NCBI RefSeq assembly: GCF_000758525.1
Contig: NZ_CP009241.1
Span: 62,001 to 126,000, forward strand
Length of the DNA stretch: 64,000 nucleotides
Direction: 5' to 3'
From: Paenibacillus sp. FSL H7-0357
GTDB lineage: Bacteria; Bacillota; Bacilli; Paenibacillales; Paenibacillaceae
Made by a program: the position numbers and the translations under genes. Shown piece by piece: positions 41,208 through 62,326 of this stretch. The notes under the pieces are model-generated. The model saw only the letters and a program-made list of their open reading frames with translations, did no database searches and was not told the origin of the DNA. Position 1 is the first letter of the stretch, and each line of letters starts with the position of its first letter.

Positions 41208-41217
41208 AAGTGAATAC

Positions 41218-41347
41218 CCCTTCCAAATGCCTACGAGGTTAGCTTAAGGGTTCGGTTGAAGGTCCCCTATGACCCCTCTGTGAATAGGAGGTCAATTCAC
41301 CCAAAATCGGTTCCCCCGTTTCCCTAATGGTTAGGGAACTCGGCATG
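41218..41347 (-). promoter_or_regulatory. ydaO-type c-di-AMP riboswitch, copy 1
   Basis: On the minus strand the leader contains the signature blocks GGGGGAACC, TTGGGTGAATT, AGGGGTCATAGGGGACCTTC, CCGAACCCTTAAGCTAACCT and CGTAGGCAT. These match the ydaO/yuaA class, which senses c-di-AMP and usually turns off cell-wall hydrolase genes when the ligand is bound. The limits are approximate. Confidence 0.92.
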
Positions 41348-41350
41348 ACT

Positions 41351-41649
41351 GTTGATTAGGATTAGCTTGTTAACCAATACATGACAAAACCTTTGTAAAA
41401 CCCGATTCAATAATTACAAAAATGTTACTAAAAACTCACTGCGATAATTGTAACAAAGACTTCGCCAGTTGGCAATCACTTAAAACATATTAATGCATAA
41501 TATTTACGCTTTTTAAGAGTTATCTTTGCTAAAAAGGTCTTATATTTACGCGCTGAGTAAGCTTTAACTTAGATTTGTTGGGATTTTTAGTAAAAAGGTG
41601 TTTCACAGACCTCAAATACGTGTAAAAGGTAGAATAAGGAAGACAAAAA
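41351..41649. other. AT-rich region between the two NlpC/P60 units
   Basis: There is no ORF or RNA here that I can support. It must contain the minus-strand promoter of the first unit, but no clear match was found. The sequence is rich in A and T runs. Confidence 0.5.
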
Positions 41650-42223: not shown

Positions 42224-42242
42224 AAGATGTACTCCTTCCAAG

Positions 42243-42358
42243 GCCTGCGAGGTTAGCTTAAGGATTCGGTAGAAGGTTCCCCTATGACCCCTCTAAAGCG
42301 AGATCAATTCACCCAAAATATGGTTCCCCCACTTCCCGGTGCCGGGAATTTGGCGTTT
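42243..42358 (-). promoter_or_regulatory. ydaO-type c-di-AMP riboswitch, copy 2
   Basis: The minus strand carries GTGGGGGAACC, TTTTGGGTGAATTGATC, AGGGGTCATAGGGGAACCTT, CCGAATCCTTAAGCTAACCT and CGCAGGC. Block order and spacing are the same as in copy 1, with differences concentrated in stems and loops. The limits are approximate. Confidence 0.92.
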
Positions 42359-42520
42359 TATGCACCGAAACAGTGACGTATCGACAAGGTTAAATGCTTA
42401 AAGGCACATTCATTTACTTCAAATTAGTTTCAAAAGATTACAAAGTTGTTACTACTGGTACAGGCATCATTGTACCAGAGGATTTACAGTTTTGCAAATA
42501 CCCTAAATCACGTTGTAACC

Positions 42521-60431: not shown

Positions 60432-60515
60432 AAATATAAGCGTACTATGTCAACAAGCTAAAACTGACTATAAAAGCAACTCAAACACACCTAACTCTTT
60501 GTTTTCCAAAAAATA
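60432..60515. other. Short spacer between pyrG terminator and insertion element
   Basis: AT-rich, with no gene. The left end of the insertion element lies near its right limit. Confidence 0.5.
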
Positions 60516-60519
60516 GTTA

Positions 60520-60533
60520 GCAACTGACGAAGA
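60520..60533 (+). repeat. Left subterminal inverted repeat of the insertion element
   Basis: GCAACTGACGAAGA; matches the other end at 11 of 14 positions. Confidence 0.6.
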
Positions 60534-60539
60534 GCGATG

Positions 60540-60748
60540 GACAGAACCGGAAGGTCTCGAACTTGAAAGGAAATAGCCTCGTGTTCAATCCTGTTATGCA
60601 ATCTGGCTGAGTGCAGATCGAGATCTAACGTACAATTCGCATTAACAGGACGAGGTGGATAAGGCTTATTTACGAGGTCTGGGCCTCTAGAATTTAATCC
60701 GATCTTCCCTCAGTCCCAGACCCACCGGTTCAGTCATTTCAGGCTTGT
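60540..60748 (-). ncRNA. Candidate bridge-type guide RNA of the insertion element
   Basis: The transposase 3' flank folds into two strong stem-loops. The first, on the minus strand, has CCCAGACC/GGTCTGGG (plus 60676-60683 with 60715-60722) closing a 31-nt loop. The second has outer pair CCTCGT/ACGAGG (60577-60582 with 60650-60655) and inner TCCTGTTATGC/GCATTAACAGGA (60589-60599 with 60639-60650, one bulge), closing a 39-nt loop. Large loops on paired stems next to the recombinase gene are what IS110-family guide RNAs look like. Transcription is inferred. Confidence 0.45.
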
Positions 60749-62122
60749 TCAGGCAACATCCAGCGTAATGAAACAGCTAAAACGGAGCTTCTTATTGATC
60801 TCCTTGGCAAACGGACAAGAGGGCTTGGTGGAGAGAAAGGGCTTCTTGTCACGTAGCATCGCAAATGCAATTTTCAGCATCTTATTCCCCATAGCTACAA
60901 AAATGGAGCGAGGATGCTTCCCGCGGCTCTTTAACCGCTCGTAAAACGGTTTGAGATCCGGGTTATGCAGGCAGAGGCTTCGACCGGCTAAGTAGGCAAC
61001 ATAGCGCAAATGAGAGTTCCCTTGCTTGGAAATTTTTCCATAAGATCCGGCACTTCCGCCCGTTTGCTTAACGACGGGATTCGTTCCTGCTTTCTTAATC
61101 AACTGTCCGGCATGAGTGTAATGGGACACATCGCCAATCTCAGCGTAGAGCTCGGCTGCAGTGGAAACGCCAAGGCCTGGAACGGTAAGTAAAACCCGCC
61201 CGTCGGTCTGAAGCAAAAGGGCTTCGATCTCCTGCTCAAGCGTATCGATCTTAGCGTCAAAGGCGCGAAGATCCTGCAGCTTCATTCGCAGCAGAAGGAG
61301 TTCGGGACGAAGCGTTTGTTCGTCAGATGAGAGCGACTCCGCAGCCACCAGAAGGAGCTTGCGAATCGCAGCGACTCGAAGCTTCAGGTTATGCTGGATG
61401 GACAACCTCCGGAGTCCCGTTTCCCCCAGCTTACAAATCGCAGCAGGATGTGGATAGTGCTCCATGAAGAAAAGGGAGGCCTTTCCCCAAAAGTTGCTAA
61501 ACACCTTGATTTTCCGAGCCCGCCCATTCTGATGGTCGGCATAGCCCTGAAATTCGCGCCAAACGATGTCCATGAGTGTTCGGATTTCCATCCGCAGAGT
61601 GGAGCGTTTGCGGATCTCCGAGCGTCTGGCCCGGGTGAGAACATGCAACTGCCGTTGAAGGCCCTCGGCCAAACGAAACTCGGTGGCTTTATTGCTCTTC
61701 AGCGCATGAGCGATAGCGACTAGATCGAGGTCATCGGTTTTACACCAGTTCAGCGCACTTGCCCGCTCTTCGAAAGTCGTATACGCGTTGAGAATCTGGA
61801 CGAGGTAGCCTTGCTTGGCCATTTCTCTAACGATATCTTCATAGTAATGGCCAGTAGCTTCAATTCCTAAAAACAGGCGTACGGCCCCAGTGGAGGCCAC
61901 CGCTTGTTCGATGGCATGGTATAGAGTCTGCATGCCGGATTGATTGACGGAAAAGAAAAAGGGTTTTGCAAGGATGTCGCCGAAATAATTGCAGATCAGG
62001 GCTTTTTGGTGGAGTTTGGCCGCATCGATAGCAACGATGAGGACCTGCTCCAGGTTAACACCCCGTAGTTGTTGACTGAACTTGGTTCCCTTTAAGCCTT
62101 GAATGTGTAGGGATTTCCCCAT
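60749..62122 (-). CDS. IS110-family transposase
   Basis: A 457-aa DEDD/serine recombinase-type transposase. The N-terminal RuvC-like acidic residues are in VLIVAIDAAK, FLGIEATGHYYED and CKTDDLDLVAIAHAL. The C-terminal Transposase_20 domain has LLTVPGLGVSTAAELYAEIGD and QTGGSAGSYGKISKQGNSHLRYVAY, whose Ser near GGSAGS fits the catalytic serine region. A coiled region lies between (about 265-310). The ATG follows AGGAGG by 10 nt. The gene is intact, so the element could be active. Confidence 0.93.
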   Translation of the reverse strand: MGKSLHIQGLKGTKFSQQLRGVNLEQVLIVAIDAAKLHQKALICNYFGDILAKPFFFSVNQSGMQTLYHAIEQAVASTGAVRLFLGIEATGHYYEDIVREMAKQGYLVQILNAYTTFEERASALNWCKTDDLDLVAIAHALKSNKATEFRLAEGLQRQLHVLTRARRSEIRKRSTLRMEIRTLMDIVWREFQGYADHQNGRARKIKVFSNFWGKASLFFMEHYPHPAAICKLGETGLRRLSIQHNLKLRVAAIRKLLLVAAESLSSDEQTLRPELLLLRMKLQDLRAFDAKIDTLEQEIEALLLQTDGRVLLTVPGLGVSTAAELYAEIGDVSHYTHAGQLIKKAGTNPVVKQTGGSAGSYGKISKQGNSHLRYVAYLAGRSLCLHNPDLKPFYERLKSRGKHPRSIFVAMGNKMLKIAFAMLRDKKPFLSTKPSCPFAKEINKKLRFSCFITLDVA

Positions 62123-62182
62123 GCGACTTCAACCTCCTGTGGTAGGGTAGGTACGATTGAAGCTCTTTGTCAGGTGCTTCTT

Positions 62183-62196
62183 TCTTCGATAGTCGC
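62183..62196 (-). repeat. Right subterminal inverted repeat of the insertion element
   Basis: The minus strand reads GCGACTATCGAAGA, the partner of 60520-60533. Confidence 0.6.
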
Positions 62197-62235
62197 TGGG
62201 GATTTTCCTTTTCTACAAGGATTATATATTACGCC

Positions 62236-62291
62236 AGAATTTATATGCTACACGCTATAAATTATCCTTCTATTTCTCGCTGAAACGGATA
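62236..62291 (-). pseudogene. Fragment of a GNAT acetyltransferase gene (3' end copy)
   Basis: These 56 bases are 54/56 identical to 32193-32248, covering the last codons and stop of the GNAT gene there plus 19 downstream bases. In the GNAT frame the copy reads IRFSEK and then a TAG where the intact gene has TTG. The rest of the gene is missing. It lies just outside the right end of the insertion element. Confidence 0.8.
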
Positions 62292-62292
62292 C

Positions 62293-62326
62293 CGTCCTTT
62301 TGAGGACGGCAAAGCCGTTTTTTTTA
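62293..62326 (+). terminator. Terminator between insertion element and spo0F
   Basis: CCGTCC/GGACGG and, overlapping it, ACGGC-AAA-GCCGT are followed by eight T on the plus strand. No plus-strand gene directly precedes it; it may once have ended a transcript before the insertion. Confidence 0.75.

Follow-up and report, generated by a model that had tools for sequence, protein, structure and literature searches.

Introduction

The described systems closest to the locus analysed here are IS621, whose guide RNA lies in the 5′ end of the element (PMC11208160), and the IS1111 elements ISEc11, ISPa11 and ISKpn4, whose seekRNAs lie downstream of the recombinase gene (PMC11187229). The IS1111 group is characterised by subterminal inverted repeats of 7-17 bp, a protein of 330-350 aa and a downstream RNA, in which the segment matching the top strand of the target is 5′ of that matching the bottom strand, the order in IS110 being the opposite (PMC11187229). 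The same source gives 315-450 aa for recombinases of the IS110 type and 395-455 aa for those of the IS110 subgroup, and places the long non-coding end of the IS110 group usually upstream of the gene, although some IS110-type elements have it downstream (PMC11187229). It has been proposed that the two groups split when the guide RNA moved between the element ends (PMC11208160).

The element described here is in Paenibacillus sp. FSL H7-0357, within a stretch of 64,000 nt that is called the window throughout (NZ_CP009241.1, positions 62,001 to 126,000). As in IS621 (PMC11208160), it has a CT core, donor guides and a predicted promoter across its joined ends, and its left guide would pair with the bottom strand and its right guide with the top strand. 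Unlike IS621, its RNA is 3′ of the gene (PMC11208160), and its recombinase has 457 aa, compared with the 328-residue chain of IS621. As in the IS1111 seekRNAs of ISEc11, ISPa11 and ISKpn4, the RNA is downstream, with segments matching both target strands, and as in ISPa11, which sits in a REP, the target is a repeat; unlike the seekRNAs as they are described there, the target segments are in reversed order, there are no significant subterminal repeats, and the recombinase is longer (PMC11187229). We put at about 0.9 the probability that the flank 3′ of the recombinase gene encodes, on the minus strand, a bridge RNA that has both a target and a donor loop.

Results

The element and its target

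The element spans 1,795 bp between its cores, or 1,797 bp with one core (Table 1). In profile searches, its recombinase scored above the cut-offs for the DEDD N-terminal domain (PF01548), the C-terminal Transposase_20 domain (PF02371) and NF033542; the stop edge of the open reading frame is at 60749. There are six full copies of the element in the genome, a single contig of 7.69 Mb, one of them with a TGA within the recombinase gene. All six share the same dinucleotide, the same orientation of the surrounding repeat and an identical RNA, and on the recombinase strand they read CATATAAATT-CT / GGCGTAATAT ... GACATAGTACG / CT-TAT(A/C)TTT, the slashes marking the element boundaries. Among 24 of the empty copies of the repeat, the majority have a single CT, in CATATAAATTCTTATATTT or a sequence close to it. 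Hence the core is CT, as filled copies have it at both ends and empty sites have it once.

Non-coding sequence makes up 113 bp of the element upstream of the gene, versus 308 bp downstream. The initial annotation had described the downstream flank as roughly 215 nt of non-coding sequence leading up to a subterminal repeat. Its non-coding nature is upheld, but the stretch continues to the element end at 60441, and the best inverted repeat between the ends of this element (8 nt with 7 matches) is not significant (shuffle p 0.94). Nor was any significant subterminal inverted repeat found in the seven elements tested, the lowest p value being a borderline 0.077 in L133 (14 nt with 12 matches).

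The insertion target is a repeat of roughly 95 bp, the 20-base centre of which occurs 71 times in the genome at up to two mismatches, versus none for the reversed control. The 11-mer TAAATTCTTAT occurs 42 times, versus 10 for its reversed control, and in 30 of these cases a repeat centre is no more than 80 bp away. The remaining twelve comprise seven in copies of the repeat that are shortened or altered and five outside it (L142, L150, L151, L154 and L155); 23 of the 42 sites were fetched and read by eye. The window itself holds a shortened, empty copy from about 32186. The orientation of the repeat is strongly biased along the chromosome, with 33 copies on the minus and five on the plus strand before 3.85 Mb, and 31 on the plus and two on the minus strand beyond. 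Several copies, read by eye, have a terminator-like stem followed by a T-run, with the end of the target directly after it.

Table 1. Features of the element, its predicted RNA and its target, in window coordinates
Feature	Position	Strand	Basis
IS110-family element, between its two CT/AG cores	60441..62235	-	Six copies and empty sites
Recombinase gene, 457 aa	60749..62122	-	ORF and domain profiles
Core CT, right element end	60439..60440	-	Copies and sequence
Core CT, left element end	62236..62237	-	Copies and sequence
Left target ATATAAATTCT, part of repeat	62236..62246	-	Copies and sequence
Right target CTTATATTT, part of repeat	60432..60440	-	Copies and sequence
Remainder of interrupted repeat	62238..62320	+	Copies and empty sites
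Right end, -35-like TTGACA and left donor GTACG	60441..60453	-	End sequence
Left end, -10-like TATAAT that would complete a circle-junction promoter	62219..62226	-	End sequence
Probable bridge RNA including closing stem, approximate ends	60536..60740	-	Relatives and folding
Conserved RNA core, basis of covariance model	60563..60717	-	Alignment
Closing stem, 5′ strand (outer part)	60725..60731	-	Six-RNA alignment and sequence
Closing stem, 3′ strand (outer part)	60544..60550	-	Six-RNA alignment and sequence
Predicted left target guide UUAAAUUCU, left-flank sense, core included	60689..60697	-	Flank comparison and scan
GAGG/CCUC hairpin, between target guides	60674..60687	-	16 of 16 distinct RNAs
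Predicted right target guide UAAAUAAG, complementary to right flank, core included	60665..60672	-	Flank comparison and scan
Donor-loop stem, 5′ strand (stem 2 of the initial annotation)	60639..60655	-	Covariation and sequence
Predicted left donor guide AUUGUACGUU	60627..60636	-	Element-end comparison
Predicted right donor guide GCCAG (contiguous part)	60603..60607	-	Element-end comparison
Donor-loop stem, 3′ strand (stem 2 of the initial annotation)	60577..60599	-	Covariation and sequence

The same RNA beside related recombinases

The same RNA lies 3′ of the gene at five loci, where the recombinases are 56-82% identical over the best segment, and the covariance model built on its core also matches beside the 42-46% identical recombinases of another genus, g373. 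A search of 18 sources with the model matched 17 and gave 16 distinct RNAs, L127 falling short of E 0.01. By genome, the model had matches in 7 out of 392 from the order, 4 out of 104 from a single family and 2 out of 398 from the phylum; the first and last of these counts include the window's own genome, and some of the matches are remnants. A search for the RNA in 49 sources, among which 41 were loci (29 and 12) with more distant recombinases of 23-29% identity, gave no match except L094 at E 0.95. No related recombinase was found on viral contigs; among plasmid (1547) and phage (35) records the best recombinase identity was below 60% in each, and these were not used for the guides.

Matches of the RNA at L115, L116 and L118, with no adjoining recombinase gene seen, were left out of the guide counts, and at L048 and L049 the contig edge precedes the RNA. 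The matches at L115 (1501-1651, 90.2 bits) and L118 (1501-1623, 44.6 bits) are thus without an evident gene; at L115 the donor loop is kept and the left target guide is not clear.

Fold and covariation

On the minus strand, 60536-60740 folds to -73 kcal/mol, whereas 200 shuffles averaged -52.7 (sd 4.8) and none of them folded as well (z -4.24). Wider ends (60500-60748) weaken this signal, to a z of -2.57 with two of 200 shuffles as good. No Rfam family reached its gathering score in the flank; two weak RNA-family matches, far below their gathering scores and inside the open reading frame, were rejected.

Across the 16 distinct RNAs, 93.9% of 492 helix cells are paired in the covariance-model alignment, which, being fitted to the model, is biased in the structure's favour. 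In the same alignment, 14 of 32 pairs have changed on both sides, in 67 cells versus 23.6 in shuffles, and the score of 0.351 compares with 0.178 for shuffles and no more than 0.110 after partners are slid; slides of one to three columns leave at most 50.6% of cells paired and at most 15 doubly changed. When six RNAs were aligned with MAFFT, the RNAalifold structure showed double changes at 11 pairs and in 14 cells, but this is accompanied by a weaker control, as the structure slid by +1 comes fairly close (nine pairs and 11 cells). Within these six RNAs, 8 of the 19 pairs of the closing stem are doubly changed. Three helix pairs are mainly G-U among the 16 RNAs, and point to the minus strand as the RNA, since their pairing would be lost were it the opposite strand.

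Two stems had been pointed out initially. The second, 60655-60639 with 60599-60577 around a 39-nt loop, is confirmed in position, and compensatory changes back its helices 4-6. The first, 60722-60715 (GGTCTGGG) with 60683-60676 (CCCAGACC), does occur at that position with its 31-nt loop, but is not conserved: in six RNAs it forms 8, 7, 7, 6, 6 and 2 of its eight pairs, and we rejected it as a functional stem. It competes with the GAGG/CCUC hairpin of the target loop, found in 16 of 16 distinct RNAs and invariant, and so without variation among them. The RNAalifold and hand-made structures differ in the pairing partner that they give the GAGG near the 5′ side.

Predicted target guides compared with the flanks

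The segment preceding the GAGG/CCUC hairpin varies among close relatives, being AUACUUUCU in L045, AUAAAUUCU in L046 and UUAAAUUCU in the window, where the left flanks are ATACTTTCT, ATAAATTCT and ATAAATTCT, respectively. On the other side of the hairpin, the right guide predicts CTAAACAA in L047, CTTTACC in L123, CTGTGTC in L125 and CTGGTAC in L133, and the flanks found there are CTAAACAATT, CTTTACCTTC, CTGTGTCAAA and CTGGTACCCA.

Such correspondences were counted across the 17 elements of the guide test, which supplied 16 left and 16 right flanks (L129 being without a right and L123 without a left one). The left guide matched its own flank at 5.19 of 7 positions, versus 2.70 for the flanks of other elements, and the right guide at 3.75 of 5, versus 1.65 (permutation p 0.00001 for each). 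Shuffling within groups, with G-U wobble counted, gave p values for the Paenibacillus type, taken together with L047 and L123, of 0.033 on the left (n=6) and 0.048 on the right (n=7), and for g373 of 0.021 (n=10) and 0.0018 (n=9). In a scan of positions in both senses (n=15, L126 excluded), the left guide ranked first of 254 at 5.53 of 7, the next reaching 3.07, and the right guide first of 256 at 3.73 of 5, the next reaching 2.47; no place in the opposite sense equalled the two guide positions.

Part of this agreement could in principle arise through shared ancestry rather than pairing, as guides and targets are common to related elements and the within-group p values are modest. One unrelated position, whose sense is opposite to that of the left flank, also has a high z (5.3 when shuffled freely, 4.1 within groups) with an own match of just 3.0 of 7, and z alone is therefore inflated by group structure. 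However, the absolute match is by far the highest at the two predicted places, and the right guide is matched at 5 of 5 in L047, L123, L125 and L133, whose targets are unlike one another, leaving common descent as the least credible explanation that we weighed.

Nor is it at all likely that the recombinase reads the repeat itself, as a palindromic DNA shape, with the 3′ structure acting as a terminator, a DNA site or something else. The presence of all six copies in one repeat family would fit such recognition, as would the placement of some relatives within palindromic sequence, but it would not lead variable loop segments to track the flanks element by element, or the left guide alone to differ among close relatives in an RNA that is nearly invariant around it, and the G-U pairs again speak for an RNA. 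Pairing of guides in an RNA with the flanks is thus the reading that we retain.

The fit is uneven in several respects. The offset of the core from the hairpin, 1 nt in the Paenibacillus type and 0 in g373, was chosen by eye from these same data, and if it is dropped the left signal is divided between two positions, with z values of 3.9 and 3.6. The right guide of the window element matches at 4 of 5 positions, but that of its close relatives fails, at 1/5 in L043, L044 and L046 and 2/5 in L045, with one insertion each; either elements of the Paenibacillus type read the right half loosely, or the copies in question are off target. L133, L136 and L137 are not independent, because their left guides are identical and their targets similar. 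The left flank of L126 matches its left guide at 0 of 7 positions; that flank, TTTGACATAGTACGCT, is similar to what Paenibacillus-type elements have at their right end, and two elements thus seem to adjoin here. In the sub-lineage of L133, L136 and L137 the target is GAGAAC-CT-GGTAC (TAGAAC in L137), and an inverted AGGTTCT about 20 bases off in the left flank makes it palindromic and repeat-like.

Predicted donor guides and the junction of the ends

The predicted left donor guide matches the element's own end at 5-7 of 8 positions in 16 of 16 elements, and the right at 3-4 of 5 in 15 of 15. Loop and end change together, the donor-loop segment AUUGUACG going with the end ATAGTACG and AUAAAACG with ATTAAACG, each at 7 of 8, and the right guide predicts CTGGC in the Paenibacillus types and CTATT in g373, in agreement with the ends. 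At the core, which is mostly CT, the left donor guide reads UU, UA or UG. The guides tell donor types apart only in part: the left donor guide of the window element matches the end of L133 and its own end equally well (7 each), these ends being much alike, and for the right donor guide of L047 the Paenibacillus end is the better match (5/5, versus 3/5 for its own end).

Joining of the ends would also create a candidate promoter, as the sequence suggests. In the 15 elements with both ends, matches to the consensus, counted without a shuffle control, were 12 of 12 bases (TTGACA-N18-TATAAT) in the window, L043 and L044. L045-L047 matched at 11 of 12 bases and the nine elements of g373 at 10 of 12; in the latter the -10 hexamer begins inside the core.

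Affiliation of the element

The element had at first been assigned to the IS1111 type, and its downstream RNA is indeed as in IS1111. We rejected this assignment on three points. Firstly, the bottom-strand match lies 5′ of the top-strand match, which is the IS110 order and the reverse of that published for IS1111. Secondly, the recombinase, at 457 aa compared with 330-350 aa, is just over the IS110 ranges printed in the source, and was counted as fitting IS110. Thirdly, the subterminal repeats are missing. An IS1111-type element with an ordinary seekRNA, the guide order of which we misread, is hence quite unlikely. All the IS110 features are present except an upstream non-coding end, and of the IS1111 features, the downstream RNA alone. 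As to its place in or outside the IS1111 clade, with one yardstick each, the recombinase scored 46.6 bits against IS4321 and 56.2 bits against ISEc20.

The nearest described group is perhaps formed by the IS110-type exceptions, which also combine an IS110-like protein length with a downstream non-coding region, a comparison made by description only (PMC11187229). No description of a subfamily combining a downstream RNA with the IS110 guide order was found in the available parts of PMC11187229 and PMC11208160, or in literature searches.

The same genome has two more multi-copy IS110-type elements (L168-L171 and L172-L173, aligned over 1,774 and 1,761 bp), both with long downstream non-coding ends that are alike by eye; word matches between these ends and their flanks yielded nothing convincing. 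The downstream position may therefore be common in this Paenibacillus host. Elsewhere in the window, two c-di-AMP riboswitches lie on the minus strand about 1 kb apart, at 41213-41355 and 42227-42365.

Discussion

A structured non-coding RNA, a match between its guides and the target, a match to the donor and a promoter sequence across the joined ends are among the features by which a bridge RNA or seekRNA is recognised, and all four are seen in the sequence of this locus. The initial annotation proposed that a minus-strand bridge RNA carries guides to both the insertion site and the ends of the element, and this is supported by the covariance-model search among related elements, by covariation, by the flanks, including the empty sites, and by the ends. 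Our confidence is tempered by the donor result of L047 and by the weaker slid control of the six-RNA alignment. Very probably, to judge from these comparisons, the RNA steers where the element inserts. It would be the bridge RNA of a subfamily for which we found no description in the sources searched, a variant in its combination of RNA position and guide order rather than a new kind of system.

In the structure that we propose, the closing stem would hold a target loop, composed of the left guide, the GAGG/CCUC hairpin and the right guide, along with a stem bearing the donor loop. By analogy with what is reported of IS621 and ISEc11 (PMC11208160, PMC11187229), excision of the element as a circle would join its ends at CT, and the junction promoter would then transcribe the recombinase gene followed by the RNA. 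The recombinase would bind this RNA, which would pair the circle junction with the target ATATAAATT-CT-TAT. There the left guide, sharing its sense with the left flank, would pair with the bottom strand, and the right guide, as the complement of the right flank, with the top strand; strands would be exchanged at CT. This target lies mostly within the approximately 71-copy repeat of the genome.

It is possible, at somewhat less than even odds, that these elements constitute a separate lineage of bridge RNA systems in the Bacillota, in which the RNA lies on the 3′ side of the gene, the guides keep to the IS110 order and subterminal repeats are lacking. If so, RNA position and guide order would be independent traits, and the lineage would be a candidate intermediate between IS110 and IS1111, specialised on intergenic repeats. 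An RNA in the position of IS1111 with guides in the order of IS110 suggests that the two traits are separable, and the order of events would hence be testable by a tree. The element also adds a Gram-positive RNA-guided recombinase, whose natural target, occurring about 71 times in its host, would be useful for working out mismatch rules in vivo.
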